Assembly (NCBI RefSeq): GCF_000328525.1
Contig: NC_019964.1
Span: 1,922,001 to 1,986,000 of the forward strand
Source of the DNA: Halovivax ruber XH-70
Lineage (GTDB): Archaea > Halobacteriota > Halobacteria > Halobacteriales > Natrialbaceae
Direction: 5' to 3'
Length of the DNA: 64,000 bases
Shown here: one piece after another, positions 2,312 through 51,687 of the stretch
How positions within the stretch are numbered: the stretch's first letter is position 1
Layout: each line of letters opens with the position of its first letter
The notes under the pieces: generated by a model
Told to the model about the DNA's origin: nothing
What the model saw: the letters and a program-made list of their open reading frames with translations, nothing else
Databases searched by the model: none
Translations under genes and position numbers: made by a program

Positions 2312-4897
2312 ATGAGCCCAACAATACGAAATTTAGTGCCTAACGTTATACGAGAAAGTTACGTTTATAAATTCGGAATCGCCCTACTCATCCTCGGGTT
2401 GTCCGTCGGATTGATAGGATTCCTCGGAACGACGATGATCACCGATAGCGTCGAAGACCGGACGCTAGAAACCCAGGAGGATATCGCTGCACAGGAAGCA
2501 GCGAAACTCAACGAATGGGACGCAGAAAACACCCAGGTCGCAAACGACGTCGCGAGGTCGTCTGCACTCCAGTGGGGTGACGACGGGGAAATCGAAAGTT
2601 ATCTTCAGGAACTGTCGTTCGCGTTCGAGGAAGCCCACTACGTGAACGTCGAAACCGGTGAAATCGATGCATCCACCGCTTCCGGCCCAGATACCATCGA
2701 AGACGTGAATTTTCCCGATGGTGAGGCCTTGACCGACGTCACGCAAAACGACGTACTCCGAACCGAACCGTACACCAACGTCAACTATGGCTCGGGGTCC
2801 GACCAACCCGTCGTCGCGTACTACACCAAAGTACCCGTCTCGGATCACGCGTTGATCGTGACGATGAATTTGGCTGATTACGGAAGCGACACCAGCGACA
2901 ACACCATCATCACCGTCCTCGACAACGAGAACCGGATCGCCACCGACGGTCGCTATCCAAGTTTCCAGGACGAGGCAACGAGCGAGAGCGGCGAGTATCC
3001 GTCCTTCCTCAGGAGTTACGACGACCCCGATGGATTCCTCTCGGTAGCGACGGAATCTTCAGTTGCAGACCGCTCAGGTGCGGCTGTTTACGATGGCTCC
3101 GGGAGTCAAGCGATTCAGGACGGGCCGTACAATTTCGAGGCGGATGGCTACGTCGGCGCCTACCACGGGACCGACATGGGCTGGACTGTGCTGACCCACA
3201 CTTCCACCGAAGACGCCTACGGTTTCGTTGCGACGGTAAACCAGTGGGGGATCTACGCAACGATAGCCGGTGTCGTCCTCATCGGGCTCATCGGCGCCAT
3301 AATCGGCCGCAATACGGCGACGTCGATCGACAAACTGACTGGAAAGGTCGCCGAGATGGAGGACGGGAATTTGGACGTCGAGTTCGAAACCAAGCGAATC
3401 GACAACATCGGCCGCCTGTACGACGGGTTCGCGGAGATGCGTGACGAGCTCAAGACACAGATTACGGAGGCCGAAAACGCCAGGGCCGACGCCGAACAGG
3501 AACGCGAGCGCGTCCAGCAGCTCAACGACGAGCTCCAGACCGCGGCCGATTCCTACTGCGACGTGATGGAGGAAGCCGCCGACGGCGATCTTACCGTCCG
3601 CATGGATCCGTCCGCGACGGACAACGAGACCATGCAGGAGATCGGCGAGGACTTCAACGACATGCTGACCGAGATCGAGGCGACCGTCGAGAGCCTGAAC
3701 CAGTTCGCGACCGAGGTCGCGACGGCCAGCGAACAGGTGACGGCCTCGAGCGAGGAAGTCCGTTCGGCCAGCGAACAGGTCAGCGAATCCGTCCAGGAGA
3801 TCTCCGACGGCGCGAACCAGCAATACGAGTCGCTCCGATCGGTCGACAACGAGATGAGCAACCTCTCGACGACGACCGAGGAGATTGCCGCCTCCTCGAA
3901 CGAGGTCGCAGACGTCGCCGAACGGACCGCCCGGACGGGACGCGACGGGAGAGAGGCTGCACGAGAGGCGATCGATGCGGTCGAGACGCTCGAAGACGAA
4001 CGCGAATCGGTCGTCGACGAGTTCGCGCAATTGCGCGACGACGTCGCCGAGATCGACCACCTCGTCGAACGAGTCGGCGAGATCGCAGAGCAGACCAATA
4101 TGCTCGCGCTGAACGCGAACATCGAAGCCTCCCGCTCCGCGGGCGGCGACGACGACGGCGGCTTCGCGGCCGTCGCAGCGGAAGTCAAGGAACTCTCCCA
4201 GGACGTCAAGGAGGCCACCGAAGAGATCGACAACCAACTCGAAGGCATCCAGACCCAGACCGAACGCTCCGCCGACGAAGTCGAACGAACCAGCGACGAG
4301 ATCGAGCGTGTCGGCGAACTGGTGACCGAAACCGTCGACGCACTCGAGGAGATCGCCGAGTACGCCCAGGAGACCAACGACGGCGTGCAGGAGATCTCGG
4401 CGGCGACGGAAGAACAGGCGGCCTCCACCGAGGAAGTCGTCGCGATGATCGACGACGTCGCATCGATCGCCGAACAGACGACGACCGAGGCCGAAGGCGT
4501 CGCCGCCGCGGCCGAAGAGCAGACCACGGCGATGTCCGAGGTCTCGAACTCCGCGAACGACCTGACCGAGCAGGCGATGGCGCTCTCCGAAGCACTCGAC
4601 CGCTTCGAAACTGACGCCCCTTCGGAGGCATCCGTCGTCGATCTCGACTACGATAGATCCGACGACGATGACGACGGGGCCGATGGCGGCCAGGACGCTG
4701 GCGAGTCGTTCTCGTTCGGCGAACCGACGGACGACGAGGCGGACACGACCGACGGTGAAGCCGACGAGTCAACGTCGATAACGTCCGACAAGCCGAGCGA
4801 CGACGAGACGGAGGCGACGGAATCCGAGGCTGGCGTGACCGACGATGACGCCACCTGGGGCGACAAAGAAGACGAAACGTTCTCCCTGGACGGGTAG
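2312..4897 (+). CDS. Methyl-accepting chemotaxis transducer
   Basis: 861 aa. TM helix about residues 20-43, an extracytoplasmic sensor domain (about 45-310, Cache-like by length and position), a second TM (about 313-335), HAMP (about 336-390), a long coiled coil, and the signalling tip EQTNMLALNANIEASRS near residue 592. The tip contacts CheA/CheW, and Gln/Glu-rich stretches on either side are likely methylation sites. A very acidic, repetitive tail of about 90 residues (Asp/Glu/Ser/Thr) follows. No che genes are adjacent, so it would feed a chemotaxis system elsewhere. The ligand cannot be deduced. Confidence 0.93.
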   Translation: MSPTIRNLVPNVIRESYVYKFGIALLILGLSVGLIGFLGTTMITDSVEDRTLETQEDIAAQEAAKLNEWDAENTQVANDVARSSALQWGDDGEIESYLQELSFAFEEAHYVNVETGEIDASTASGPDTIEDVNFPDGEALTDVTQNDVLRTEPYTNVNYGSGSDQPVVAYYTKVPVSDHALIVTMNLADYGSDTSDNTIITVLDNENRIATDGRYPSFQDEATSESGEYPSFLRSYDDPDGFLSVATESSVADRSGAAVYDGSGSQAIQDGPYNFEADGYVGAYHGTDMGWTVLTHTSTEDAYGFVATVNQWGIYATIAGVVLIGLIGAIIGRNTATSIDKLTGKVAEMEDGNLDVEFETKRIDNIGRLYDGFAEMRDELKTQITEAENARADAEQERERVQQLNDELQTAADSYCDVMEEAADGDLTVRMDPSATDNETMQEIGEDFNDMLTEIEATVESLNQFATEVATASEQVTASSEEVRSASEQVSESVQEISDGANQQYESLRSVDNEMSNLSTTTEEIAASSNEVADVAERTARTGRDGREAAREAIDAVETLEDERESVVDEFAQLRDDVAEIDHLVERVGEIAEQTNMLALNANIEASRSAGGDDDGGFAAVAAEVKELSQDVKEATEEIDNQLEGIQTQTERSADEVERTSDEIERVGELVTETVDALEEIAEYAQETNDGVQEISAATEEQAASTEEVVAMIDDVASIAEQTTTEAEGVAAAAEEQTTAMSEVSNSANDLTEQAMALSEALDRFETDAPSEASVVDLDYDRSDDDDDGADGGQDAGESFSFGEPTDDEADTTDGEADESTSITSDKPSDDETEATESEAGVTDDDATWGDKEDETFSLDG

Positions 4898-5073
4898 TCC
4901 CCCACCACACTCGAGAACCCGCTCGATTCTTCGTTTTCCGCGGGTCGATTGATCCGTGCATTCTTTCGGGAGGTCGATTGTTCGTTGTCAAATGCCGGCC
5001 CACACCGGTAATACCGAAACACGAGGACGCAACGGGCAGAGTACTTATTGTTCGGCCATCCCCACCGGATAGC

Positions 5074-5427
5074 GTGCAGCTCGTCCACGAACCGCCGACT
5101 GGCTCGCAATCGATCGTCGCTTCGTCCGTCCGAACGGCGGACTCGTTCCTCGCGAAGGCGTTTGGACTCATGTTCCGACGGTCCCTCCCAGCAGAATACG
5201 GCCTCGCCTTCCGGTTCGACGACCGACGGACACGCACCATCCACATGGTGTTCGTCTTCGTCCCGCTCGACGTGATCTGGGTCGCAGACGGCGTCGTCAC
5301 TCACGTCGAACGGTTGCACCCCTGGCGTGGCATCGCCCGTGCCGAGGCGGATCTGATCGTCGAACTCCCCGCCGGTGGCGCCGATGGAGTGGCGGTTGGC
5401 GACCAGCTCTCACTGAGCGAGGCGTGA
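5074..5427 (+). CDS. DUF192 family protein
   Basis: 117 aa, taken from the GTG at 5074 (VQLVHEPPTGSQ). The frame could start upstream with a TTG, but a TATA-like CTTATT about 30 nt before the GTG favours the shorter form. The core AKAFGLMFRRSLPAEYGLAF followed by a TIHMVFVFVPLDVIWV segment is the DUF192 signature (small beta-rich protein, function unknown). It follows the transducer gene by about 175 bp on the same strand. Confidence 0.8.
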   Translation: MQLVHEPPTGSQSIVASSVRTADSFLAKAFGLMFRRSLPAEYGLAFRFDDRRTRTIHMVFVFVPLDVIWVADGVVTHVERLHPWRGIARAEADLIVELPAGGADGVAVGDQLSLSEA

Positions 5428-5496
5428 CAGACAGTCCCGTCGGTCTCGGTCCGTTCGGATCTCGCCGGTCCAACGAGTCCCGGGCCGGCTCGCTTC

Positions 5497-5546
5497 GCTC
5501 GTCACGTTGTTCACGAAGAAGCGCCGAGGGGGAGATTTGAACCACG
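5497..5546. repeat. 50-bp direct repeat, copy 1, with tRNA-Ser 3'-end core
   Basis: This 50-bp sequence is identical to 5713-5762. Its second half (GCCGAGGGGGAGATTTGAAC) matches the 3' end of the tRNA-Ser gene at 5881 in 19 of 20 bases, in the same orientation. tRNA 3' ends are the usual integration sites of archaeal tyrosine-recombinase elements, so an att-site relic is a reasonable inference. Confidence 0.85.
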
Positions 5547-5712
5547 CCGAGACGTTCCGGGTCGCTCGCTGGCTCACGGCTGTGCCGTTCCCTTTTCGCG
5601 GTTCTCACTCCGTATCGAACCGCGCTCCGCTCGCGTCCCGGGCTGCGACTCGTCTCCTTCAAACTCACTATTCGCGCTCTCCGCTCACGGAGACGAGCAC
5701 ACGCTACGCGGT

Positions 5713-5762
5713 GCTCGTCACGTTGTTCACGAAGAAGCGCCGAGGGGGAGATTTGAACCACG
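5713..5762. repeat. 50-bp direct repeat, copy 2, with tRNA-Ser 3'-end core
   Basis: Second perfect copy, 216 bp after the first; its tRNA-like core lies 142 bp before the core of the true tRNA. The bases that would form the rest of the T-arm do not pair, so it is only a 3'-end fragment and not a complete tRNA. Confidence 0.85.
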
Positions 5763-5880
5763 GTCGGACGTTCTCGCTCACTTCGTTCGCGAGCGTGCGA
5801 CCTCCCTGATTCAAATTCCCCGTTCTACGTTTTCACGACGCAGTGGCTCGCTTCGCTCGCCGTGTTGCGTCGTGAAAAAC

Positions 5881-5964
5881 GCCGAGAGGGAGATTTGAAC
5901 TCCCGTGTCCGTGAGGACAGCAGATTTCGAATCTGCCGCCTTGGCCGGGCTAGGCTATCTCGGC
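5881..5964 (-). tRNA. tRNA-Ser (anticodon CGA)
   Basis: 84 nt. The acceptor arms GCCGAGA and TCTCGGC pair perfectly. The anticodon stem GCAGA/TCTGC encloses the loop TTCGAAA with anticodon CGA, reading UCG codons. A variable arm (TGTCC-TCAC-GGACA) and a T-arm (GGGAG-TTCAAAT-CTCCC) are present. The long variable arm is typical of serine tRNAs. CCA is not encoded, and no intron is visible. Confidence 0.96.
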
Positions 5965-6086: not shown

Positions 6087-7037
6087 ATGGACGCCAACCA
6101 GGCGCACGACGAGTGCGAACGCGTTCTCGAGACGATCGGTGAGGCAATCGTCGCCGAGCGTCGCTTCTTCGAAGACATCCTCGTCGGAGTCGTCGGTCGG
6201 GGGCACGTGTTACTGGAAGACGTTCCCGGGACAGGAAAGACGCTGACAGCCCGGAGCGTCGCCACGGCACTCGGCCTCTCGTTTTCGCGCGTGCAGTTTA
6301 CGCCCGATCTCCTTCCGTCCGACGTGACGGGCACGCACATCTACAACGAGAACGACGCCACGTTCGAATTCACCGAAGGGCCCATCTTCGCGAACATCGT
6401 GCTCGCCGACGAGATCAATCGCGCGCCACCGAAGACACAGGCGGCGCTCTTGGAGGCCATGGAGGAGGGGCAGGTGACCGTCGCCGGGGAGACTCGCGAA
6501 CTCCCGAAACCGTTCTTCGTGATCGCCACGCAAAACCCGGTCGAACAGGAGGGAACGTTTCCCCTCCCCGAGGCACAGGTCGATCGATTCCTCGTCAAGA
6601 CCTCGATGGGGTATCCCGACGAAGCCGGTGAGATCGAGTTGCTAGAGAGGCGAGCGAACCGGGACGCACAGAGCCCGTCAGTCGAGGAAGTGTTCGAACC
6701 GAGTCACGTTCGCGACCTCCGTCGCGCACCGGAGACCGTCGACACCGATCCCGACCTGCTCTCGTACATCGCGGCGATCGCTCGCCAGACACGAACCGAC
6801 GGCCGCGTCGCCGTCGGCGTCTCCCCGCGTGGCACGCAGCGACTCTTCGAGGCCTCGCGAGCGTACGCCATCCTCCAGGGCCGCGATTTCGTGACCCCGG
6901 ACGACATCAAGCGCGTCGCACAGCCGGTGCTCGCCCACCGGCTCGTCCTGACCCCCGACGCCGCCGTCAACGACGTCGAAAAGTCCCACATCATCGAGGG
7001 CGTCCTCGAATCGGTTCCCGTGCCGACGGTCGAGTGA
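6087..7037 (+). CDS. MoxR-family AAA+ ATPase
   Basis: 316 aa. Walker A is GTGKTLTAR near residue 49, Walker B LADEINRAPPK near residue 107, followed by the sensor ATQNPVEQEGTFPLPEAQ typical of MoxR. The C-terminal region corresponds to the AAA lid. MoxR ATPases act as chaperones, usually next to DUF58 and vWA partners. Here those partners are absent: only a hypothetical protein follows, so the client is unknown. The vWA protein at 13.9 kb is in a separate operon. Confidence 0.92.
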   Translation: MDANQAHDECERVLETIGEAIVAERRFFEDILVGVVGRGHVLLEDVPGTGKTLTARSVATALGLSFSRVQFTPDLLPSDVTGTHIYNENDATFEFTEGPIFANIVLADEINRAPPKTQAALLEAMEEGQVTVAGETRELPKPFFVIATQNPVEQEGTFPLPEAQVDRFLVKTSMGYPDEAGEIELLERRANRDAQSPSVEEVFEPSHVRDLRRAPETVDTDPDLLSYIAAIARQTRTDGRVAVGVSPRGTQRLFEASRAYAILQGRDFVTPDDIKRVAQPVLAHRLVLTPDAAVNDVEKSHIIEGVLESVPVPTVE

Positions 7038-8034: not shown

Positions 8035-9006
8035 TCAGCGCGTCTCGTCCATCCGATCGATCCACTGCGCCGGTGCGTCCAGTTCCGCTGCGGTCGGCAG
8101 CGCCTCCGGACCGTTCCAGACTCGACCGGCGAACGCGAGGTCGCGCTTCCTGGCTACCGTCTCGAAGAAGCGCTTGCCGCGTTCGTACTGTCGACGTTTG
8201 AGTCCGAGACCGAGGAGGCGCCGAAACAGACGCTGGAGTGGAGAGCCACCCTGGCGGCGGTCGTCGAGTTTTCGCCGCAAGTCTCCGGTCTCCTGATCGA
8301 ACGCGTGGTCCATTAGCAGTTCGGCGTAGCCCTCGACGACAGTCATCGCAACGTCCAGCGTTTCGAACGCGTTCGCGTCGAAGGACCCCGACGAGAGCGT
8401 CCGGAGGCTCGTCTCGACGTGGCGTTCGAGGTGGGCAGACAGCCACGGTGCCGTCGCGAACTCCGCCGCGTGCGTGACCTCGTGAAACGCGATCCACCGG
8501 CGAAATCGATCGCGATCGAGGTCGAGTTGTTCGGCAACGCGGACGATGTTCGGGTGGACGAAGTACAGCGCGTGCGTTCGATCGGCAGACTCAGCGAGCA
8601 ACAGCGGGTCGTACTGGCCGAGGACGTTCCGACCGAGATAGCCGAGCAAGACGGACATCGTTCCCGTGTTGATCGTCCTGGCGATACCGGGAAACGACCC
8701 GAGTTCGTGCTCGATTGGCGTCATCACGCGCTCGAAGGTCGTGACGTTCGCGTCGATCCAGTGATGGCGATTGTGGACGTCGATCGCGTCGGGAAGCGTC
8801 ACGTCGACGCCGCCGACTCGCTCGATCTCCCGGCGGGCATCCCTGACGTCCGCCCTGTACCCCGCTCTGTCGGCCTCGTCTATGTCGAGCGAACCAGGTG
8901 GCGTCAGCGCCTTCGACGCCTCGGCAGCCGCTGTCCAGTCGATCGCGTGCTCGCCCGAGGCGCCGGCGACCGCCCGAGCACTCCGATACAGATTCACACG
9001 CGACAT
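8035..9006 (-). CDS. Zinc-dependent hydrolase, coenzyme F420 biosynthesis-associated (DUF2342) family
   Basis: 323 aa. The metalloprotease-type motif FHEVTHAAEF (HExxH) lies near residue 174, preceded by a helical region with ALYFVHPNIVRVAEQLDLD. This layout is that of the DUF2342/'coenzyme F420 biosynthesis-associated' proteins, first named from gene neighbourhood; no enzymatic role is proven. No cof genes are next to it here. It is the last gene of a minus-strand run behind the small membrane protein. Confidence 0.8.
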   Translation of the reverse strand: MSRVNLYRSARAVAGASGEHAIDWTAAAEASKALTPPGSLDIDEADRAGYRADVRDARREIERVGGVDVTLPDAIDVHNRHHWIDANVTTFERVMTPIEHELGSFPGIARTINTGTMSVLLGYLGRNVLGQYDPLLLAESADRTHALYFVHPNIVRVAEQLDLDRDRFRRWIAFHEVTHAAEFATAPWLSAHLERHVETSLRTLSSGSFDANAFETLDVAMTVVEGYAELLMDHAFDQETGDLRRKLDDRRQGGSPLQRLFRRLLGLGLKRRQYERGKRFFETVARKRDLAFAGRVWNGPEALPTAAELDAPAQWIDRMDETR

Positions 9007-9043: not shown

Positions 9044-9334
9044 TCAGTTGACGACGACGTCTCGCTCGTCGAACGAGTCGGGTTCGGACTCGTCACGTCG
9101 GTATCGACGAACGGCGACCGCGATGGCGATCATGGCGACCGCCCCCACGACCAGCGGACCCAGGCCGCGGCCGTCGTCGGCCGACTCCTCGTCCGCGGAT
9201 TCGGCCTGCAGCGCGGTCTCGTCATCTGCCCGTGAGTCGTCCGAACTCGAACCCAGACCGGGGAGCGACTGCGGACCGAGCTGGTACTCGCCGTCGAAGT
9301 GCAACTCCAACAGAGTGAACGTTTTCTCACCCAT
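9044..9334 (-). CDS. Small single-pass membrane protein
   Basis: 96 aa from the ATG at 9334 (MGEKTFTLLELHF). A beta-rich N terminus, an acidic Ser/Asp linker, one TM helix (about residues 64-80, GPLVVGAVAMIAIAVAV), a basic stop-transfer RRYRR and a short acidic tail. No known domain is recognised. It lies between the second kinase and the DUF2342 hydrolase on the same strand. Confidence 0.65.
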   Translation of the reverse strand: MGEKTFTLLELHFDGEYQLGPQSLPGLGSSSDDSRADDETALQAESADEESADDGRGLGPLVVGAVAMIAIAVAVRRYRRDESEPDSFDERDVVVN

Positions 9335-9388
9335 ACGTGGCCTGTCCACAGTCGGGCACTTAGCCGTTGTGTCGCCAAAATCGGTCGC

Positions 9389-10666
9389 TCAACGATCTGC
9401 CCCAAAGGTGAGGATGGGACTGTACTCCGGGCTTACGGGGGAAATCCTGGTTCCGTTCTCGAGTGACACGTGCTCGGGCGGCGATCGATCCGGCACCGAC
9501 TCCCCGGCAGCACGTCTGCGCTCGATCCCGTCGGCAGCACAGACGTACCGCCACTCGCCGTCGATATCCACGTAGGTCCCGTTCACACTTCGGTCCACGT
9601 ATCGCCAGCCACCTGGCGTCCACTCGATCGTCGCGTGCGTCGGTGAGAGATATCGCTCGACGTCGGGAAGGACGACCGCCGGTGACGCTCGATCGGAATC
9701 GATTCGACCAATCGCATCGCCCGAACGGACGGAAACGCTCACCCCGCTGTCCTCGTCGGTTAGTGTCGCCAGCCGGTCGGAGCGTCCGAGGATCGGTTCG
9801 AGCGCCGAGAGCAGTTCGATGGCGTCGTCGTAGCGATCCGCCGACCGGGGTTCGGTCGCGGTTCTGACGATCGTCGCGAGGTCGGCCGAACAGTCGGCAC
9901 CGTGGGCCCAGGGGTCGAACGGCGTCCAGTCGACAATCCGTGAGGAATCGTCACCAACTGCCTGGGTATCGGCTGTCGAGTTATCACTAACTGCCAGGTC
10001 ATCAGCTACCGTGTCGTCCGCGGCCGTGGTACCGGTAAGCACCGCCCAGATGAGCACTCCGAGCGCATAGACGTCCGACCACGGACCCGCCGGGTCGTCG
10101 CGAACGTCCGTCGGCGACAGTTCCGGCGGCTTGAACGGATCGTGATGAAACACCGTCGACGTCCCCTCCTCGATGGCGGCGGCGGAGTTGAGGTCGATCA
10201 CCACGGGCGTTCCCTGCGGTCGAAGCAGGACGTTAGACGGTTTGACGTCCAGGTGCGCCACGCCGTTTTCGTGCAAGAAGGCGATCGCTCGACAGATCGG
10301 GGCGGCGAGTGATCGAACCGCGTCGGTCCCGGGGGAGCCAACCGGAAGTCGATCCGCGAGCGACCCGCCGTCGATCAGTTCGGTCACGACGAACCCGCCC
10401 TCGTCGGTGGTCGATCCGTCGACGAACCGGACGAGCGACCCGGGGATCGGCGTCTCGGCGAACCGACGAACCCACCGGAGTTCCCGGTCGAAGTGACGCC
10501 TGACCTGCTCGCGGTCGTGAATAGCGTCGTCCGCTCGCTTGAGGGCAACCGGGCGGTCTCGATCCAGATCCGTCGCTCGCCAGACGGTCGAGAGTCCGCC
10601 AGAATCGAGGCGAGCCTCCAATCGATAACGATCGGCGACGACCAACCCTGTCGGATCCGAACTCAT
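9389..10666 (-). CDS. Serine/threonine protein kinase with C-terminal FHA domain (second kinase)
   Basis: 425 aa from the ATG at 10666; a GTG two codons upstream is possible. The kinase domain (about 10-300) has the Gly loop LDSGGLSTVW, the ATP lysine in VALKRA, the catalytic loop HLDVKPSNVLL (HRD replaced by HLD), and DLN in place of DFG, with PPE in place of APE. The catalytic and metal-binding Asp are kept. A 40-residue Thr/Asp-rich insertion lies in the C-lobe. The C-terminal FHA domain (about 320-410) has IGR, SPTH and the SVNGTYV core. No TM helix. It is last of the four enzymatic genes in the FHA operon. Its altered DFG and HRD suggest weak or specialised activity. Confidence 0.88.
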   Translation of the reverse strand: MSSDPTGLVVADRYRLEARLDSGGLSTVWRATDLDRDRPVALKRADDAIHDREQVRRHFDRELRWVRRFAETPIPGSLVRFVDGSTTDEGGFVVTELIDGGSLADRLPVGSPGTDAVRSLAAPICRAIAFLHENGVAHLDVKPSNVLLRPQGTPVVIDLNSAAAIEEGTSTVFHHDPFKPPELSPTDVRDDPAGPWSDVYALGVLIWAVLTGTTAADDTVADDLAVSDNSTADTQAVGDDSSRIVDWTPFDPWAHGADCSADLATIVRTATEPRSADRYDDAIELLSALEPILGRSDRLATLTDEDSGVSVSVRSGDAIGRIDSDRASPAVVLPDVERYLSPTHATIEWTPGGWRYVDRSVNGTYVDIDGEWRYVCAADGIERRRAAGESVPDRSPPEHVSLENGTRISPVSPEYSPILTFGADR

Positions 10667-10705
10667 TCGCACGACTCACCCTGGCGAACCGGTATCGACT
10701 CCATC

Positions 10706-12454
10706 TCAGACGATGAACTGTTCGAACGCCGATTCACCCGTCTCGTCGGGTCGATTCCGTCTGTCACGGGCGTCCGCCACGGAGCGGAAGAACTGGAAGG
10801 TAACCGTCTCGGTCGAGCGCGGATCCTGGAGCGTAAACGCCGTTCCGTCCTCGATCGTCGTCGTCGCCGAGATCGCCTCCTCGGCCGCCGCACCCGGGTC
10901 GAACCCGTGTTCGCGGTGGAGTTCGACACCCTCTGCGGAGAGCAACAGTACCCATTCACCGGGAGCGGCCTCGACGTACGTCCCGGAGGAACTCGAATCG
11001 CGAACCGTCCACGCGTCGGCGTCCTCGTCGTACCCGATCGTCGTGTGGGCCGGTTCGACGATCCCGTCCGGTCCGACGTCCAGTCCGATGTCCGGACCGT
11101 CGTCCGCCGTGTCAGTCACGCATCCGATCGTCACGCCGTCACCGACCTCGAAGACGCGGTCCTCACCGACGACGGCGATCGCGGCCGTCGGCGGCTCGCC
11201 GTCACACAGCGTCACGACGTGTTCGTCGGGAACGAGTGGATCGTCGTCAGCAGTCGAGGGAGCAGACGATTCAGGCGTACTCGAGGTATCCGTCGACGAT
11301 TCGGGCGTGCCGGACGACGCCTCGGGGTCCGCCGACGCTTCGGCGATTGTGGCCGCTGTCGAGTCGCCATCACCGGCGGATCCACCTTCGTCGGACGCCG
11401 ATCGGGCTGGTGATTCGATCTCCGTCTCCTGATCGACGAGACCCGGCGAATCGGATCCGATACCACGCGCCGGCGGTCGATCGGGTGTCTCGGCGGCGGC
11501 GGGATCGCTCGCGAGCGAGATGGAGAGGTTGTCCTTGCCGCCTCGATCGTTCGCGAAGTCGATCAGTTCCTCGACCGCGTCGGACAGATCGTCGGCACCG
11601 AGGACGATGTCGCGAATCTCGTCGTCCGTGACGAGCGTGTCACGAATGTCGGCCCGGACGGCCTCGGTGTCGGTGGCCGCCTCGTAGGCCGCCCGGAGTG
11701 GCGCGATGTCCGGGAACGCGTCGATCAGTCCGTCGCTCGTCAGGAGGATCACGTCGTCACGATAGACCGGAACCGACCCGAACTCGACGTCGACGCTTGG
11801 CTTGCCGTGGCCCGATCCGCCGACCGCGTTCGTGATCGCCGTCGCATCTTCGTGAACGCGCGCGTGCTCGTCGTGGTCGATTTCGCCTCGCTCCAGCAGG
11901 TCGTTCGTGACGGCGTGATCCCGCGTCAGCTGTTCGATCGTCTCGTGGTCCCGGTTGAGAACGTAGAGACGACTGTCGCCGACCCAGCCGTAGTGAAGGC
12001 GGCCGTCGGCGTACACGGCAGCCACGACCGTCGTCGCCGGCCGTGCACCGACGTCCCGCGCGTACTGCTGGACGTGTGCGTGCGCCTCGTCGATGGCCTC
12101 CTGGATCGCCGTCCGGATCCGGGACTCGGAGAGAGGTGACGTGCCGTCGTCGTCCGTCTCTGAGACGGTCGGCGGCGTCTCGTCGTAGGCGTCGATCGCG
12201 TATTGCTCGGGACGGTCGGTTCCGTCACCCAGCAGCGCCTCCGTCAGGTGCGCCCTGACGACCGACGTCGTCAGAAACGACGCGACGTCGCCGCTCGCTT
12301 CGCCGCCCACGCCGTCACCGAGGACGAAGAGGCCGACTGATCGACTCGTTCCCCGATGATGGTTCTCGAGGATGGTCGTCGCCACGCTGTCCTCGTTGAT
12401 GCCGTTTGCCTCGCGCTTTCGTCTACCGATGTCTACCGTGCTCGCGTGTTCCAT
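10706..12454 (-). CDS. PP2C-type protein phosphatase with C-terminal FHA domain
   Basis: 582 aa from the ATG at 12454 (MEHASTVDIGRRK), 8 nt after the upstream kinase stop, so clearly one transcript. PP2C motifs are intact: NEDS, LGDGVGGEAS, GDSRLYVLNRD, LLTSDGLID and GGKDNLSI, so metal-dependent Ser/Thr phosphatase activity is expected. A Ser/Thr/Asp-rich linker (about 330-430) leads to an FHA domain (about 440-540) that keeps IGC and PAHTTI but has SSGTYV where canonical FHA has NGT, so phosphothreonine binding may be altered. It probably opposes the two flanking kinases. Confidence 0.92.
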   Translation of the reverse strand: MEHASTVDIGRRKREANGINEDSVATTILENHHRGTSRSVGLFVLGDGVGGEASGDVASFLTTSVVRAHLTEALLGDGTDRPEQYAIDAYDETPPTVSETDDDGTSPLSESRIRTAIQEAIDEAHAHVQQYARDVGARPATTVVAAVYADGRLHYGWVGDSRLYVLNRDHETIEQLTRDHAVTNDLLERGEIDHDEHARVHEDATAITNAVGGSGHGKPSVDVEFGSVPVYRDDVILLTSDGLIDAFPDIAPLRAAYEAATDTEAVRADIRDTLVTDDEIRDIVLGADDLSDAVEELIDFANDRGGKDNLSISLASDPAAAETPDRPPARGIGSDSPGLVDQETEIESPARSASDEGGSAGDGDSTAATIAEASADPEASSGTPESSTDTSSTPESSAPSTADDDPLVPDEHVVTLCDGEPPTAAIAVVGEDRVFEVGDGVTIGCVTDTADDGPDIGLDVGPDGIVEPAHTTIGYDEDADAWTVRDSSSSGTYVEAAPGEWVLLLSAEGVELHREHGFDPGAAAEEAISATTTIEDGTAFTLQDPRSTETVTFQFFRSVADARDRRNRPDETGESAFEQFIV

Positions 12455-12462
12455 GATGTCGG

Positions 12463-13716
12463 TCAGATGTTGAATTGAACGTAGAATCGTTCGGGATAGC
12501 CCGGGCTGACGAGCGCGATGACGTCGCCGTCGTCGAGCCGGCGCGTCGACTCCAGATCGTCCGGGATCGATTCGCCCTTCTCTCGCTGGCGCTCCTGACC
12601 GGTCTCCGAGAGGAGCCGGTCCCACGACCGCTCGTCGCGCTTGCTGATGTACGTGCCGTTGAGACTCGTGTCGATCACGACCCAGTTTCCGTCCTCGTCG
12701 GTGTCGAACCGGCAGTGAACGGCCGAGAGCGCGCGGTGCTCGTCGTCGTTCAGCATGATCGACGGTCGGGGGCCGTCCCGGGTCCGGCGACCGATCGTGT
12801 CACCGGGGCTGAGTCGCCAGCGCGTGTCCTGCCCGAGCCACGAGAGCGAAGCCTGGGCTGGCATCGTCGAGTCACGCGTCTCCAGCGCCCGCTTCAGGAC
12901 CGAGGCGTTCGGGTAGCGATCGGTCTGGTCGTGTTGAGTCGCCGTCCGGATGATCTCGTCCAGATACGGCGCGCCGTCGACCCCGAAGTCCCGTGGGGCG
13001 ACGCCGTCGTCGTCCGGGACCCAGCCGACCTGGAGGAAGCAGAGGATCTTGCCGATGGAGTAGACGTCGCTCCAGGGCCCCTGTCGTTGCTCGGACCCAC
13101 GATTCAGTTCGGGCGGTTTGAACTCGCCAGGGACCGTCGAATCGCCTTCCGAACTCGCCGACGGGTTGGAATGGGTACCGCTCGTGAACTCCGCGCCGCC
13201 CATCTCCGCGACGAACCCCTTCGCGGTCGTAAAGTCGATGAGTTTCGGCTCGTACGACCCGTCCAGCATGATGTTGTCCGGCTTGAGATCACGGTAGATG
13301 ATATCGTGATCGTGCAGGAACGAGAGGGCGTCACAGATCCCGATCCCGATCTCCCGAACCTCGTCCGGATCGGTGATGGGATCTTCGTTTCTGACGACCG
13401 TCCCGAGCTCCTCGCCCTCGATCAATTCGACGACGAGGACGGAAGTCCCGAATCCCTCCTCGACGCCGTAGGCGGCCATGATGTTGGGGTGACCGCCTGC
13501 CGTTCGAATGTCGGAGAGAACCTCCCGCTCGCGCTGGAAGTACTTATCGACCAGCTCGGGTGGAGCGCTCCCCTTGTAGTTCGGATATTTGAGTGCGACC
13601 CGGGACCCGTCGGTCGTGTCCCGCGCCCGCCATACGACGCCGAAACCGCCGCGGCCGAGCTCCGTCTCGAGTTCGTACCGACCGGCGAGTTCGTCTCCAG
13701 CTGATGGTTCAGACAT
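12463..13716 (-). CDS. Serine/threonine protein kinase with C-terminal FHA domain (first kinase)
   Basis: 417 aa. The kinase domain (about 10-280) has LGRGGFGVVWRA, VALKYPN, the catalytic loop YRDLKPDNIML and IDFTTAKG, where DFG is replaced by DFT; PPE replaces APE. The C-terminal FHA (about 305-410) has IGRRTRDG, LSAVHCRF and SLNGTYI, all canonical, so it should bind phosphothreonine. No TM helix, so cytosolic. The stop is 8 nt from the PP2C start. Signals and substrates are unknown; the vWA and FHA/zinc-ribbon proteins upstream are likely partners. Confidence 0.92.
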   Translation of the reverse strand: MSEPSAGDELAGRYELETELGRGGFGVVWRARDTTDGSRVALKYPNYKGSAPPELVDKYFQREREVLSDIRTAGGHPNIMAAYGVEEGFGTSVLVVELIEGEELGTVVRNEDPITDPDEVREIGIGICDALSFLHDHDIIYRDLKPDNIMLDGSYEPKLIDFTTAKGFVAEMGGAEFTSGTHSNPSASSEGDSTVPGEFKPPELNRGSEQRQGPWSDVYSIGKILCFLQVGWVPDDDGVAPRDFGVDGAPYLDEIIRTATQHDQTDRYPNASVLKRALETRDSTMPAQASLSWLGQDTRWRLSPGDTIGRRTRDGPRPSIMLNDDEHRALSAVHCRFDTDEDGNWVVIDTSLNGTYISKRDERSWDRLLSETGQERQREKGESIPDDLESTRRLDDGDVIALVSPGYPERFYVQFNI

Positions 13717-13860
13717 GGTATACGTGGAAATCTCGTCCGCGATCGCGTCGGCGACGTCGCCCGAGTCGACACCGGTCGACTCGTCCGCTGGCCAGAGTGG
13801 CCGAGTACGGTGACGAGCCGGGCAGGAGTCGTGGACCGGGAGACGGTCTCGAGCCGACGT

Positions 13861-15066
13861 TCAGTTGAACTGACTGTCGTCGAAGACGACGGTCGTGTTC
13901 TCCTGTACCTTTCGCGCTTCGCTCTCGTCACCCTGTTCGATCCGGGTGACGTTCTCGCGGAGGACGTCGGCGATCTCCGTCTCGCCCGTGATGACCTCCG
14001 TCTCGTCGATCTTCTCACGGACTTCCTCGAGTTCGCCCGGAGAGTCGGCGTGGGCGATTCGGGTCCGGAGATCCGTGTCGTGGTAGGCGAGCGTGACTTC
14101 GGTTTCGTGCTGGGAGAGTTCCTGCGCGTCGTCGGAGTAGGTCACGGAGAGCGCCGTCGAGGCGTCGACGGCATCGGAGTCGAGTTCGACGTCGGCGATG
14201 ACCTGCTCGTCGCCGACCGTTCCCGGCGGGGCGTCCATCTTGAGGACGATCTCCTGCCGCTCTCTGTCCTGCAGGTCCGGGAGCCCAACGACGACGGAGC
14301 CGTCCTCCTCGTACTCGAGGTCGATCTGCTGGACCTGCGGGAGCCGGCGGAAGGCCATCCCGACCTCACAGCCCTCGATCGGGTCGATGACCAGTTCCGG
14401 ATTGTTCGCGAGAACCGTGGACGCCTCCTGAACGACGTCGCCGAAGAACGAGCGAATGTCCGTCGGCTTTTCGACGTGCGCCCACCGCCCCTGGGAGTGT
14501 TCGCCGACGGTACGGATGACCTCCTTGCCGTAGTTGGTCCCGATCCCCGCGGAGTAGACGGAGATGCCAGCGGTCGCGATCGCCTTCGCGAGCGGTTCGA
14601 AGTCCGGCGGCTTCGCGCGCAGGTCTCGACCGTCCGAAAGCAGGAGGATGCGCTTCGAGATATCCTCGCTCCCGTCCAGTTCGACGAGCGACTTTCGCGC
14701 TTCTTCCAGACCGGCGTAGATGTCGGTCCCACCGCCCGTCTCGATGTTCTCGAGGCGTTCTTCCGCCTCCTCGCGCTCGATGTCGCCCCATCGTGTCGCG
14801 TCCATGATCACGTCGACCTCGTTGTCGAACGTGATGATGCTCAGGTAATCGTCGTCGTTCAACAGGCCGAAGACGAGTTTCGTCGCGTCCTGGACCTGAT
14901 CCATCTTGCTGTAGGCCATCGAGCCGCTGCTGTCGACACAGAGCGCGATGTGGCGCTGGGCCGGCTGGTCCTGTGCGTCCGGTTCGATGAGTAGCTCGCA
15001 GGTGACCCCGCCCCCGTCTTCCGGCAGGTACGGTCGGTTCACCTTCGTGGATAGTTGCGTCGGCAT
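13861..15066 (-). CDS. von Willebrand factor A domain protein
   Basis: 401 aa. The vWA domain (about 35-215) has an intact metal-ion-dependent adhesion site: CVDSSGSMAY (DxSxS), TGGGTDIYAG (Thr) and LLLSDGRDLR (Asp). A beta-rich domain and an acidic helical tail follow. No signal peptide or TM, so it is intracellular, as in TerY/vWA partners of bacterial kinase-phosphatase modules. It lies about 145 bp upstream of the first kinase gene on the same strand, and probably acts as a Mg2+-dependent scaffold or substrate of the phospho-system (inference). Confidence 0.9.
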   Translation of the reverse strand: MPTQLSTKVNRPYLPEDGGGVTCELLIEPDAQDQPAQRHIALCVDSSGSMAYSKMDQVQDATKLVFGLLNDDDYLSIITFDNEVDVIMDATRWGDIEREEAEERLENIETGGGTDIYAGLEEARKSLVELDGSEDISKRILLLSDGRDLRAKPPDFEPLAKAIATAGISVYSAGIGTNYGKEVIRTVGEHSQGRWAHVEKPTDIRSFFGDVVQEASTVLANNPELVIDPIEGCEVGMAFRRLPQVQQIDLEYEEDGSVVVGLPDLQDRERQEIVLKMDAPPGTVGDEQVIADVELDSDAVDASTALSVTYSDDAQELSQHETEVTLAYHDTDLRTRIAHADSPGELEEVREKIDETEVITGETEIADVLRENVTRIEQGDESEARKVQENTTVVFDDSQFN

Positions 15067-15239
15067 TGTGACTGGTATATCGTGGCAGGAACGTCGGATA
15101 ACTTTTTCGGAGCGTTCAGTTAGTGTGACACCACGGCAATCTGAAGCATCCGCTGCGCGTCGTCGGCCGCGGCACGTCCGCGATCGATCACCCCCAACGA
15201 GCCGACAGGAAGGTCGGTGTCGGCAGCGATCGATGGTGA

Positions 15240-16130
15240 CTACAGTTCGACGGTGAGCTCGGCCCGTTCGGCGAGCGTGAGCGTATCACCGTCCTCGAGT
15301 TCGGCTTCGTCGCCGTCGAGATCCTCACCGTTCAGCGCCGTTCCGTTTCGGCTCGTATCCGTCACGGTGACGCCATCCTCGTCGACGGAGAACGTCAGAT
15401 GGTCGCTCGAGATGTACGCGACGTCGTCCGAGCCGCCGCTCTCGTCGACGAGCGTCTCCAGCCACGGTTCGTCCTGGCGACCGAACGTGTCGCCGTCGTC
15501 GAAGTCGTACGATTCGCCCCCGAAGGAGAGCGTGACCGGTGCTGAGTCGGCCTCGTCGTCAGCACCGTCGTCTGCCTCACCGTCGTCAGCATCGTCCGCG
15601 TCGGCGTCTTCGTCGTCCGCGTCGGCGTCCTCGCCATCGGCCTCGTCCGACTCGTCAGCGTCTGGCGCTTCGTCCGCCGAATCGGTGTCGGCGTCCGCCT
15701 CCGCGTCGTCCGCCTCGTCGTCTTCGGCGGCTGCCGCACGGGCCTCGCCGAGATCGGTCCCGCAATCGGGACAGTACGATTCCGTCGAGACCGCCCGACC
15801 ACAGTCGGGACAGGCGTCGAGTTCGCCATCTCCGTCGCCGTCGGTCACGGCATCATCGATGTCGGTCCCACAGTCCGGACAGTACGAGATCGAGTCGGAC
15901 GACGCGGAATCGTCGCCCTCGGACGTCCCGTCATCCGCCGAGGCCGCATCAGCGTCACCGGCCGCCTCGTCGGTTTCGTCGCCAGTCGATCCATCGTCTT
16001 CGCTCTCTTCGTCGGTCGCTACTTCGAAGTCCGGGTGCGGTGTATCACAGTCCGGACAGAAGCCACCGTTTGGTGCGGGATCGAACGTCGTCTCACAGGA
16101 AACACACTCCAGGGTCGCATCATCTGACAT
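15240..16130 (-). CDS. Zinc-ribbon and FHA domain protein
   Basis: 296 aa. Five CxxC knuckles (CVSC, then four CPDC) in the first 130 residues form at least two double zinc ribbons. A very acidic Asp/Glu/Ala linker (about 130-200) leads to a C-terminal FHA domain with FGRQDEPW, ISSDHLTF and DTSRNGTALN. It is the first gene of the operon, with a TATA-like CTATAG about 27 nt upstream of the ATG. Probably a phosphothreonine-reading adaptor for the kinases downstream. The linker coding is highly repetitive (GCCGAC/GAGTCG codons). Confidence 0.9.
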   Translation of the reverse strand: MSDDATLECVSCETTFDPAPNGGFCPDCDTPHPDFEVATDEESEDDGSTGDETDEAAGDADAASADDGTSEGDDSASSDSISYCPDCGTDIDDAVTDGDGDGELDACPDCGRAVSTESYCPDCGTDLGEARAAAAEDDEADDAEADADTDSADEAPDADESDEADGEDADADDEDADADDADDGEADDGADDEADSAPVTLSFGGESYDFDDGDTFGRQDEPWLETLVDESGGSDDVAYISSDHLTFSVDEDGVTVTDTSRNGTALNGEDLDGDEAELEDGDTLTLAERAELTVEL

Positions 16131-16531
16131 AGTAGGTAGACGCGTTCACAGTCACTATAGAAAAAAGTATTGTCGACTCACTTTATATTGTACAACGGTT
16201 CGGCCGGAGTCCGTTGGAGACACAAACGGTGGTATCGGTCCGTACGGAGCCATACTCGCCGACTCCGACGTCACAACGAGGGGCTCGCCGCCACTCGAGG
16301 TGCTGACAGGTCGGGGATGCGATCCCACAGCAATTTCGCGCTGTCATTGCAGCCAACACGGAGGGTCGTGCACCAGCTCCAGGGGGCGAGAAATTCAGAG
16401 GCGAGAAACCACACCAGCAAAGAAATCACGTCGAGTGGGGAGTTACGTCAGAACCGTGACCAACGGAGTCTCCGTTCGACTCGCAACCGGTCACGAAACT
16501 ATTTATCTGAGAAGTCCAATGTCAACCCTGA
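16131..16531. promoter_or_regulatory. Divergent promoter region between FHA operon and membrane protein
   Basis: About 400 bp without a gene, with an AT-rich island (16155-16195) next to the FHA gene. A TATA-like CTATAG on the minus strand (about 16155-16160) sits 27 nt before the FHA start, and ACTATTTAT (16498-16506) sits 29 nt before the ATG at 16532. Both genes therefore look leaderless and divergently transcribed. I see no other structure in between. Confidence 0.65.
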
Positions 16532-17854
16532 ATGGACGTTCCAGAACGGGCCATACGTGCCCACGTCACCCTCAGTTTCTACGAAGTGGCTGTGGTCCCG
16601 CTTTCGTTTCTGGCAGTATTCTTCGCGTTGCTCCTCGCCGGCGGCGTTCTGTCGGGGGTCGGGATCGCTGGCGACGCGCTCGCCATCGGATCGACCGCGC
16701 AGTCTGTCTTACGGGTGGCCGTCGTCGTCGCGACGGTCGGCTCGCTGAGCGCGCTCGGTGGGGTCGTCGTTCGACTGTACCAGGGCATCTTCGATCGGTC
16801 GTTCGGTTCACTCGCCCCGCTCCGGCTCTGTGCGATTCCGCTGGTGGCACTCGTCGGTGCCCTCGGCTACGGCATCGCGTCCGGGGGGCCGATCACGGCG
16901 CCGTGGTGGATCGCCCTGATCGCCATCGTCAGCGCCCACGCGCTCGTCTTCCGATCGATCGCGGTGTTCTCGATGCTCGATCACGCGAAACGAACCGGCT
17001 CGCGCGTGGGCACGATCGCCGCAGTGCCGGCCGTGCTCGCGCTCGTCACGGTGATCACCGAGCAGGTACTAGGCGCGGGAATGAACGCGGGCGGGACGCT
17101 GGTCGTTTCGACCCTGGACGCCACCGGAATCCCGCAGGCACCGGCCACGCTCCTGCTGGCTCCGATCGCCGTCGGCAGCGTGTACGGACTCACGACCCGG
17201 GAAGAGACGGTATCGACGGACACCGTCCGACTGTCGCTGCCGTTCGAGACGGATCGGTCGCTGCTCGACCGACTCCGGCCGTCCGGCGAGTCGACGCACC
17301 CGTCGAGAGCGTCCGGCGAATCGTCGGTTCGCAACCGTTCTGGCGAGGCACCACCGCCGTCGAGCCCACACGCGAGTAACACGACCGGACGGTCGAACGG
17401 ATCGACTCGGAACCGCTCGAACCGATCGGTCTTTCGGGGTGGCTCCAGCGGGGCAGATGGGACGGAAGACTCGTCGTCCGCAGCCAACGCCGCTGACTCG
17501 TCCGGAGGCACGTCGAACGCATCCGACGACGCGGCACAGACATCCGGGAATGGGTCGGCAGCATCGACCTCGGCACCGCCCGAGTCGGGTGGAGCGGGTG
17601 AGGAGTCGTCGCCCGACCCAACCGACGCCGAGGAGCAGGAAGCGACCAGTGAGGCGAATACCGAATCTGGGCCGGCTACGAACGGGTCGGGCACGGAAAC
17701 ACGTATTTTCACGGATGATTTCGGCGAGTACGCGGGTGCCAGCGGCGAGAGCGCTTCTGCCGACACGGACCCCGAAACGTGTCCGGAGTGTGCAACCGAC
17801 CTTCCAGCCGACAGCGTCTACTGCCCGAGCTGTGGGAACGAAATTCGCACCTGA
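16532..17854 (+). CDS. Multi-pass membrane protein with C-terminal zinc ribbon
   Basis: 440 aa. About five hydrophobic segments fill residues 12-220, followed by a long Ser/Gly/Asn/Asp-rich disordered region (about 240-400) and a C-terminal zinc ribbon CPECATDLPADSVYCPSCG. The zinc ribbon resembles those of the divergent FHA protein. The start is supported by the TATA box at 16498-16506. I do not recognise the membrane domain; a Yip1-like fold is possible but unproven. It may be the membrane anchor or sensor of the adjacent phospho-signalling operon (inference from position and ribbon). Confidence 0.75.
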   Translation: MDVPERAIRAHVTLSFYEVAVVPLSFLAVFFALLLAGGVLSGVGIAGDALAIGSTAQSVLRVAVVVATVGSLSALGGVVVRLYQGIFDRSFGSLAPLRLCAIPLVALVGALGYGIASGGPITAPWWIALIAIVSAHALVFRSIAVFSMLDHAKRTGSRVGTIAAVPAVLALVTVITEQVLGAGMNAGGTLVVSTLDATGIPQAPATLLLAPIAVGSVYGLTTREETVSTDTVRLSLPFETDRSLLDRLRPSGESTHPSRASGESSVRNRSGEAPPPSSPHASNTTGRSNGSTRNRSNRSVFRGGSSGADGTEDSSSAANAADSSGGTSNASDDAAQTSGNGSAASTSAPPESGGAGEESSPDPTDAEEQEATSEANTESGPATNGSGTETRIFTDDFGEYAGASGESASADTDPETCPECATDLPADSVYCPSCGNEIRT

Positions 17855-43466: not shown

Positions 43467-44123
43467 TCAGGCGGCGGTAAACTGGGTTCGCAACGACTCG
43501 ACGGCGGAGTCGTCCATGATGATCGCCAGTTCGTCACCCGAGGCGAGCTCGATGCCGGGAAGCGGAATCGTCAGCGATTCGTCCGCGCCCCCGTGGGCGT
43601 AGACGCGGACATCAGCTGGGAGGTCGAGTTCGCTCAATCGCCGCCCGATCGCCGGCGAACCGGCTTCGACTTCGACGACACGTAGCTGCAGGTCGGTCGC
43701 GAGCTCAGTCACGACGTTGAAATTGCCCCCGAGGAGTGCGGTCTTCGCCCCGGCCGCGCCGAGGCGTTCCGGATAGACGACGTCGTCGACGTTCTCGGCG
43801 TACCTGTCGTACAGTTCCTCGCGATAGTCCTCGTCGATCCGCAGGACGGTTCGACAGCCGTGTTGGTCACCGATCATACAGGCGGTGAAGTTGACGTTCA
43901 GGTCCGGGGTGAACGCACCGATTGCATCGGCCGTTTCGATACCCGCCTCTTCGAGAACCCGTTCCTCGTCCCCGCTGCCGATGATTGCGTCGAACCCGGC
44001 GTTCGTCGCCCGGTCGACGCGATCCGGGTCGGAATCGACGATCGTAACCCGGTGACCTTCGGTCGAGAGGATACGCACCGTTCGACGCCCGACGCGGCCG
44101 TACCCCACGATAACAATGTGCAT
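43467..44123 (-). CDS. TrkA-family potassium uptake regulator
   Basis: 218 aa from the ATG at 44123 (MHIVIVGYGRVGRRTV). Rossmann RCK-N domain: GYGRVGRR, VTIVDSDPDRV, and GSGDEERVLEEAGI; then a short RCK-C domain (about 140-215: LRVVEVEAGSPAIGRRLSELDLP and LASGDELAIIMD). The protein binds NAD(H)/nucleotide and gates a Trk/Ktr-type K+ channel, which is not encoded next to it. Confidence 0.9.
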   Translation of the reverse strand: MHIVIVGYGRVGRRTVRILSTEGHRVTIVDSDPDRVDRATNAGFDAIIGSGDEERVLEEAGIETADAIGAFTPDLNVNFTACMIGDQHGCRTVLRIDEDYREELYDRYAENVDDVVYPERLGAAGAKTALLGGNFNVVTELATDLQLRVVEVEAGSPAIGRRLSELDLPADVRVYAHGGADESLTIPLPGIELASGDELAIIMDDSAVESLRTQFTAA

Positions 44124-44361
44124 GGGAAGCGGTTCGGCCCCATCACACAAATGTACACAGGGTTATCGTAATGTGATTGATCAATTGGTGACCGACGGCG
44201 ACTCGATTCCACCGTTTCGACAGATTACGACCAGAAGTTGGACGAGCAGGAAACCTCTCTCGAATAGTTCATGAATTGAAGCGCCCAGTGAACGATATAA
44301 ACGGAAAAAACGGTACGGACTGGCGGTACAGTTTATCATATTCACAGAATTTCAGTAGTAC

Positions 44362-45867
44362 ATGACCGGACGTGCCGCCGTGCCCGCGGAGGAGTCGCCG
44401 CCGGATCGGGCACAGGCAGAGGTTCTCGGAGTCGTGTTACTACTCGGGCTGGTTGCTGTTGGTTCGCTGTCGCTCATGGTGGTTGCAACCAGCGCCGTCT
44501 CGGACACCCAGAGCCAGGCAGAGACGGAACGAATCGAGCAATCCTTCGTCCAGCTCAGCCAGACGATGGCGACGGCAACGACGGCCGGCGACATGCCCAA
44601 AGCGGTCTCGTTCGACGCGGGTGAGTCCGGCGCGATCACCAAAACGGACGCCGGAACGTTCACGATACAGGGCGGAAACGTCAACGTCACCAGAACGGTC
44701 GGGGCGATCGAGTACAGACACGACGACGGAAGCGTCGTCGCCTATCAGGCTGGTGGGGTCTTCGCAGAACGCGGAAATCAGACTCGCGTCATCTCTAACC
44801 CACCGATTTCGTACGATCCAGTCGACGAGACGCTCACACTCCCAATCACGGACATGAGCGAGAGCCAGGACCTCTCGTCCGGACCAGTGCGCGTTTCGAC
44901 GGCAGCCACAGACCCATTACGTGAGGCGAGTCTGGTCGAAAACGACACGGTGACACTGACGATCCAGGGTCCGTACTATCGTGGCTGGGAGGAGTACTTC
45001 CGCGATGCCGCCGGTTCCGGCGTCGTCGACTCCATCGATCATAGCAAAAACACCGTCGTCGTCAAATTCGGGTACTTCGAGCTTGACGAAGCACTCGATA
45101 CAGGAGCGACGGTTGGAGGGAAGGAGTCGAAATACTTCCACGACAAACACGGCAATATCGGGGAATATTACCGACAAGGAGTTCTCATGCCCGAGATGGA
45201 CCCAGTGATTGACCAAATCATAAAAGACTCAAAATCAGATCCAGTCGCCGACTCTGATAATTTGAGGATGACGAACGGCACCTATTATGTCGACGAAATC
45301 GACGGCGCCGTCGATTACGATGTTGACCTTACAAAAGACGACGTTACCCTCGTTGTGGGGGGCGACGTTAATTTAGACGGTGGAGACATACACGTGACGG
45401 ATAGAGACGGAAAAAAGGAGAACGTATTTCGGATCTATGCTGGCGGAGATAAATTCACATTAGACGGGGAGGTCTGTGTCCAGACTGGTAGCGAATGTGA
45501 AGAAGATGCGACGGCTATTCAGTTCTACGGACCATCCACGATGGCAGTCGATCTGGGTCCTGGATCTGCAGGAACATTCGAGGGACTACTGTACGTTGCA
45601 TCGAACAGCGAGCAGAACGATTGGTGGAACAATCCAGAGGGGAAGTGCGGAGCACACCATCAAATTCACGAACAAGCAAATGGTGCAGATTTCACCGGTT
45701 CGATGGTGGCATACTCCGTCTGTGCCCAATCGAACGGAAATGAGTTCGACTACGACACCGATCTTGCAGACATCGACCTAGATGCGTATCCCGACGAGTA
45801 TTCCCTTCCCCCACAGCTCACGTATCTCAACGTGGCTGTGTACCAAATGGACGTCGATAACAGCTAG
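44362..45867 (+). CDS. Secreted/surface protein with pilin-like N terminus (DUF7289-like)
   Basis: 501 aa. The N terminus RAQAEVLGVVLLLGLVAVGSLSLMVV resembles class III (pilin) signal peptides or the N-terminal anchor of haloarchaeal DUF7289 proteins. The rest is an Asn/Asp/Thr-rich extracellular region with conserved-looking EYRHDDGSVVAYQAGGVFAERG. It contains three Cys and many N-glycosylation sequons. Codon and GC use drop toward the 3' end. First of three related consecutive genes; function unknown. Confidence 0.75.
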   Translation: MTGRAAVPAEESPPDRAQAEVLGVVLLLGLVAVGSLSLMVVATSAVSDTQSQAETERIEQSFVQLSQTMATATTAGDMPKAVSFDAGESGAITKTDAGTFTIQGGNVNVTRTVGAIEYRHDDGSVVAYQAGGVFAERGNQTRVISNPPISYDPVDETLTLPITDMSESQDLSSGPVRVSTAATDPLREASLVENDTVTLTIQGPYYRGWEEYFRDAAGSGVVDSIDHSKNTVVVKFGYFELDEALDTGATVGGKESKYFHDKHGNIGEYYRQGVLMPEMDPVIDQIIKDSKSDPVADSDNLRMTNGTYYVDEIDGAVDYDVDLTKDDVTLVVGGDVNLDGGDIHVTDRDGKKENVFRIYAGGDKFTLDGEVCVQTGSECEEDATAIQFYGPSTMAVDLGPGSAGTFEGLLYVASNSEQNDWWNNPEGKCGAHHQIHEQANGADFTGSMVAYSVCAQSNGNEFDYDTDLADIDLDAYPDEYSLPPQLTYLNVAVYQMDVDNS

Positions 45868-48486: not shown

Positions 48487-48611
48487 TCGACTAGAACGCA
48501 ACCGTTCTTCGATTCATTCACATTTTTAATCAAACCTCTCGGTCCAATGGAGCGTGGGTGACCAAACTGATTCGAGATCGATAGTGAAAAGTGTCAAAAT
48601 GCAGTATAGCG

Positions 48612-51613: not shown

Positions 51614-51687
51614 GCCGTCAACTAGCGAATCCAACACTCACTCTGCTCGAAACAGTTACTAGAGAGAATTGCGAAGAATCGACGCCC

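Follow-up and report, generated by a model that had tools for sequence, protein, structure and literature searches.

In the 64,000-nucleotide stretch of the Halovivax ruber genome analyzed here (the window), positions 9389-16130 comprised five consecutive minus-strand open reading frames. The open reading frame listing and Pfam assignments placed these genes, and the domains they carry, where the original prediction had put them: a zinc-ribbon-FHA protein, a vWA protein, a kinase-FHA protein, a PP2C phosphatase, and a second kinase-FHA protein. All five are real, but the unit is larger than had been proposed, and the divergent gene at 16532-17854, which had been missed, belongs to the cluster. 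Specifically, the features are:

9389..10672, minus strand: accessory kinase K1 with an FHA domain (427 aa from GTG; Pfam kinase 3e-25, FHA 1.5e-5)
10706..12454, minus strand: PP2C phosphatase, Stp1-like (582 aa; Pfam PP2C 7e-11), with the linker Thr tag Q-E-T-E-I-E
12463..13716, minus strand: core Hanks-type Ser/Thr kinase K2 with a C-terminal FHA domain (417 aa; Pfam kinase 9e-31, FHA 8e-8)
13861..15066, minus strand: vWA protein with an ArnB fold (401 aa; Pfam vWA 4e-21)
13873..13899, minus strand: vWA protein, C-terminal tail bearing Thr tag N-T-T-V-V-F-D-D-S, the second Thr being T392
15240..16130, minus strand: zinc-ribbon-FHA reader (296 aa; Pfam FHA 1.5e-8)
16131..16531, no strand: intergenic region between the divergent genes (401 bp), presumed to hold the promoters of both arms
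16532..17854, plus strand: membrane/zinc-ribbon protein (440 aa), a divergently transcribed core member
17699..17710, plus strand: Thr tag T-R-I-F in the membrane-protein linker (residues 390-393)

The K2 and PP2C genes are separated by 8 bp and the PP2C and K1 genes by 33 bp. Gaps of 144 bp before the K2 gene and 173 bp before the vWA gene make more than one promoter possible. For K1 the GTG start was taken, and an ATG two codons downstream is also possible. The reader consists of N-terminal zinc-ribbon-like Cys clusters, an acidic linker, and a C-terminal FHA domain in which GR, SSDH, and NGT are all intact in Halovivax ruber. In the vWA protein, an intact MIDAS (DSSGS) is followed by a beta-sandwich and a C-terminal four-helix bundle, while the membrane protein has predicted N-terminal membrane helices, a long disordered linker with E-T-R-I-F as its tag, and a zinc ribbon at the C-terminus (structural model of low confidence, pLDDT 60).

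The original prediction staked itself on co-conservation of the gene set, and the same order indeed recurs across haloarchaeal families. Homologues of the vWA protein (E <= 1e-20) were present in 22 of 145 Halobacteria genomes, and 20 clusters were located in 19 of 145 haloarchaeal genomes, of which 18 clusters (the Halovivax ruber window among them) were read directly and two were inferred from an adjacent PP2C match. A scan of named genomes, which overlaps the 145-genome set in that several loci come from the same genomes, gave 26 loci. All had the vWA, K2, and PP2C genes in that order, with the zinc-ribbon-FHA gene detected in 24 and the membrane/zinc-ribbon gene in 20. Two layouts were apparent: type A, in Natrialbaceae and a few others, runs reader, vWA, K2, PP2C (and K1, where present), usually with a divergent membrane gene, and type B, in Haloarculaceae, runs vWA, K2, PP2C, reader, membrane gene. 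The duplicated kinase emphasized in the prediction does exist, but it is not a defining trait, as K1 is accessory, with only nine distinct copies found and none in most loci; moreover, K1 and K2 are only 31% identical, which points to an old paralogy.

All 24 significant PF00498 matches in the 145 haloarchaeal genomes belonged to the cluster, apart from one that directly adjoined it. At this whole-genome threshold some diverged type B FHA domains escape Pfam, and the count makes no claim that these are the sole haloarchaeal FHA domains, a separate ESCRT-linked FHA family having been published (PMC10936438). Likewise, 20 of 26 PP2C_2 matches were inside the cluster. Given the recurrence across families and the location of the FHA matches, the gene order is more than chance. 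Halovivax asiaticus has a vWA protein that is 100% identical. In the vWA tree, the cluster proteins were placed apart from stand-alone homologues (support 97/97), and one Haloarculaceae copy was nested beside Halovivax (support 100/98), the latter of which suggests transfer between families. A small TM gene (9044-9349), a DUF2342/zincin_2 metallopeptidase gene (8035-9006), and a MoxR-type AAA ATPase gene (6087-7037) were considered as members and rejected, being kept beside the cluster only within the same genus; the latter two flank it in Halovivax only. Among the loci L073-L125, which are bacterial and came out of the vWA scan, related neighbors were seen in L103 only, a Cloacimonadota contig in which zinc-ribbon-FHA, vWA-TM-FHA, and PP2C-TM genes adjoin (2461-5644) and linkers contain T-V-I-L and T-I-I-L, a bacterial analogue.

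With respect to the enzymes, the catalytic-loop HRD and DFG Asp motifs of K2 were present in 39/39 relatives, and its conserved Lys in 39/39 by a loose pattern and 32/39 by a strict one, while its FHA domain retained GR in 36/39, SxxH in 38/39, and NGT in 39/39. Key PP2C motifs were present in 39-40 of 40 relatives and the vWA MIDAS was kept in 40/40. Judging from these motifs, K2 and PP2C look active. The catalytic motif of K1 was looser, two Natrinema-type copies having HLDVTP in place of HLDVKP, and type B readers have HRxH where a canonical FHA has SxxH. Three of the four FHA domains that had been predicted, one on each enzyme and one on the reader, are intact; that of PP2C is not, since in Halovivax ruber its C-terminal FHA is degenerate (Pfam E 0.033, below the cut-off), with GR replaced by GC, SxxH by EPAH, and NGT by SGT. 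Elsewhere this domain has the full motif in the relative L041 and is absent from aligned type B copies. Taken together, co-conservation and the conserved catalytic residues support the earlier suggestion of a putative self-contained phosphothreonine circuit. The nearest relatives of the kinases were PknB/StkP and that of the phosphatase was Stp1, such that these enzymes look bacterial.

AlphaFold modeled the vWA protein with high confidence (pLDDT 91.5, pTM 0.88) as a vWA domain, a beta-sandwich, and four C-terminal helices. Foldseek ranked 4fx5, an actinobacterial vWA protein, first, followed by ArnB (8s05, TM 0.74-0.79) and ArnE (5a8j, TM 0.66-0.72), with nearly the whole protein covered, and the 4fx5 match was as good as that to ArnB. 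A sequence-profile search of the PDB placed 8s05, the ArnAB crystal structure (PMC12852372), first (E 4e-25). No ArnB_C domain was named by the Pfam scan of the vWA protein, nor was ArnA found by a phmmer search from the reader. The reader and vWA protein have the architecture of ArnA and ArnB; orthology does not follow from this, because the bacterial protein fits equally well and both types of enzyme are bacterial in appearance.

This Sulfolobus precedent, in which a zinc-ribbon-FHA reader is paired with a vWA protein and a kinase and a phosphatase exert control, was overlooked in the original prediction. There, ArnA is laid out as zinc ribbon, linker, and FHA domain (PMC10470591, PMC6509490), and binds ArnB at its C-terminal bundle once this is phosphorylated, the pair repressing the archaellum (PMC6509490, PMC12852372). 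All known ArnB phosphosites are in that bundle, and the kinase ArnC and phosphatase PP2A act on ArnB. The haloarchaeal cluster resembles this archaeal system (ArnA/ArnB with ArnC/ArnD and PP2A) in the reader with its N-terminal zinc ribbon, linker, and C-terminal FHA domain, in the partner formed of vWA, beta-sandwich, and C-terminal helix bundle with a Thr-bearing regulatory C-terminus, and in the kinase/phosphatase control. It differs in that kinase and phosphatase are within the cluster, the kinase has an FHA domain of its own, the phosphatase is a PP2C rather than PP2A, a Thr tag is common to several proteins, and the core includes a tagged membrane/zinc-ribbon protein.

The tag, T-x-[IV]-hydrophobic, occurs in the membrane-protein linker, the vWA tail, and the PP2C tail. 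In the membrane-protein linkers, which are acidic and otherwise unalignable, T-[RQ]-[IV]-[FY] was present in 17/17 non-redundant sequences versus 0.55 expected from shuffling, which here and below ignores the relatedness of the sequences; type B membrane proteins often had a second tag, D-T-[SA]-[VI]-F. The vWA tail had N-T-T-V-V-[FY] in type A and two T-x-I-V copies in type B, and T392, placed with its tag after the last predicted helix, was invariant across 15 relatives (alignment A1). In PP2C the tag reads [ED]-T-x-I and is in the linker or at the C-terminus. Membrane proteins and type A vWA proteins had the stricter aromatic form, while PP2C had the looser form only (T-x-[IVL] in 16/17 tails versus 7.6 expected by shuffling). 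The same looser form was in 7/7 vWA tails versus 4.0 expected and, as a control, in 22/24 linkers of the zinc-ribbon-FHA reader versus 16.4 expected, and by itself would be weak evidence for a tag. The better argument is the constant aligned position together with the absence of the tail tag from stand-alone vWA homologues outside the cluster.

The tag also bears a resemblance to the GarA phosphosite, ETTS (PMC5448819), which is a lead. Like the haloarchaeal proteins as proposed here, GarA/OdhI of Actinobacteria has a Thr in a short disordered motif that is phosphorylated by a Hanks-type kinase and bound by an FHA domain. Unlike them, it is a single protein that works intramolecularly and binds metabolic enzymes, with no vWA protein, PP2C, or membrane partner in the operon. 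Tagged clients spread across the Halovivax ruber genome were considered and rejected: the strict pattern [DE]T-x-I-[FY] gave nine matches versus two in the reversed control and only that of the membrane protein sits in a disordered stretch. In L041 (genome G111), four cluster neighbors (3502-3969, 12469-13113, 14803-15531, and 15744-15995) have T-x-[IV]-[FYW] in disordered stretches, three of the four tags being at the extreme C-terminus (TEIF, TEIY, TKIY); one of these three is a HEAT-repeat protein and one of the four an apparent membrane protein, and they are possible clients. It is doubtful, in our estimation, that T-x-[IV]-[FYW] serves as a portable phosphothreonine tag code by which the FHA kinase/phosphatase/vWA cassette recruits unrelated clients, which would include membrane proteins and, in L041, several neighbors (HEAT-repeat, small membrane, and zinc-ribbon proteins).

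From this anatomy and from Sulfolobus, we infer an ArnA/ArnB-type phosphothreonine switch that is self-contained, in that kinase, phosphatase, and membrane partner are all encoded in the cluster, and we put the probability of this reading, through the resetting of the tags, at roughly two in three. The vWA protein, PP2C, and the membrane protein each have T-x-[IV]-hydrophobic tags in disordered tails, and K2, together with K1 in some species, would phosphorylate the Thr of these tags. Once phosphorylated, the tags would be bound by the FHA domains of reader and kinase, and this binding would bring the reader, the vWA protein, and the enzymes together, probably at the membrane protein. PP2C, which has a tag of its own and would be recruited through it, would reset the tags. 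The reader/vWA pair, either assembled or released, may then act further downstream; following the Sulfolobus example, the most plausible target is the transcription of genes for the archaellum or for other surface appendages.

The ArnAB likeness could have another origin, to which we give slightly less than an even chance: haloarchaea would have acquired a bacterial STK-PP2C-vWA-FHA cassette, and the resemblance would reflect only common blocks (vWA with beta-sandwich, zinc-ribbon-FHA), a history compatible with the proposed mechanism. The PknB/StkP and Stp1 affinities of the enzymes, the fit of 4fx5, and the adjacent zinc-ribbon-FHA, vWA-FHA, and PP2C genes of L103 would all be expected from such an assembly; however, the whole gene set was in none of the bacterial loci fetched, and the L103 vWA protein is laid out differently, with TM and FHA. 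The TerY-P frame of the original prediction fared worse. We consider it highly improbable that the cluster is a TerY-P-like stress or defense module in which a vWA, PP2C, and kinase switch acts on an anti-phage or DNA-processing effector encoded elsewhere, even though these three classes are encoded together in both systems, the distribution is patchy with apparent transfer between families, and the kinases match defense-kinase models such as PD-T4-6 and mad6. Those PADLOC matches reflect generic kinase similarity, and the defense reading was rejected. In TerY-P the kinase bears a zinc ribbon (PMC11090510), or else is fused to an OB-fold, whereas Pfam found no zinc ribbon on K1 or K2, both of which end in FHA domains alongside an FHA reader, and the fold of the vWA protein is of the extended ArnB type. 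TerY-P also accompanies ter, restriction, or defense genes. In line with the prediction, neither ter nor secretion genes were recognized nearby: among annotated neighbors, no ter, restriction, nuclease, or other DNA-processing or defense genes were recognized in the ~10 kb neighborhoods of seven loci and the window flanks, and no type VI secretion genes, as would be expected of a PpkA/PppA/Fha system, in the flanks and the loci inspected. Kinase fusion and gene context thus do not fit membership in TerY-P.

For the proposed phosphothreonine switch, the output is a separate matter. ArlDE was present in 113 of 145 genomes overall and in 19/19 sampled cluster carriers (Fisher p about 0.008, uncorrected for phylogeny). 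Within genus g2, 2 of 12 genomes are archaellated and the same two, and only these, carry the cluster, located about 5.5 kb from the second ArlDE gene. Of 17 further carriers, 14 had ArlDE and the three without a match are metagenome bins. Linkage was rejected as a general rule, since it holds in the two g2 genomes only; in Halovivax ruber the archaellum locus and the cluster are 1.3 Mb apart, and many archaellated genomes are without the cluster. With the loci unlinked outside g2, archaellum control is plausible, at clearly less than even odds. A 2026 Haloferax study attributed archaellum control to an as yet unidentified network, citing ArnA/ArnB only as a Sulfolobus parallel (PMC13286277). 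The same switch may instead serve a DNA-damage response, cell surface or envelope stress, or the activity of membrane proteins, in which case the membrane zinc-ribbon protein would be the sensor or effector; this is a real contender at somewhat short of even odds. ArnA of S. islandicus is a repressor of the DNA-damage response (PMC10470591), the membrane protein is a conserved, tagged cluster member, and both the general lack of linkage and the three bins without ArlDE agree with such an output, which the archaella of all sampled carriers and the g2 linkage speak against. The interval that separates the cluster from the archaellum genes in the two g2 genomes contains a PadR-like regulator (L030:1427-1927).

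According to a 2023 paper, conservation of FHA proteins in archaea is confined to Crenarchaeota, with occasional examples in other groups (PMC10470591); in Halobacteria, many Haloarcula species among them, the cluster is an FHA system that recurs with its gene order preserved. It would be a variant of the ArnA/ArnB kind of switch, new in that a membrane member and a common Thr tag accompany an ArnA/ArnB-like core in one self-contained cassette. A paper search, with most subscription journals outside its reach, did not find a description of this cluster. The Halo_FHA ESCRT loci (arCOG13166) likewise encode an FHA protein of haloarchaea, in some cases next to genes for a kinase and a phosphatase, but are centered on Vps4 and ESCRT-III, with Halo_FHA fused to a CdvA-like domain (PMC10936438); neither Vps4 nor ESCRT-III was recognized among the annotated genes neighboring the cluster. 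The cluster predicts which Thr are phosphorylated, and the short motif offers a handle for finding clients. Moreover, the ArnAB signaling mechanism would become testable in a mesophilic euryarchaeon with all components in one cassette.

Finally, elsewhere in the window, three 24-nt direct repeats of the tRNA-Ser 3' end were present at 5497-5900, the third within the tRNA-Ser gene (5880-5964), and look like attachment-site scars of integrated elements. Positions 44001-54000 had a lower G+C content (52-59% versus about 64%) and are perhaps an acquired island.
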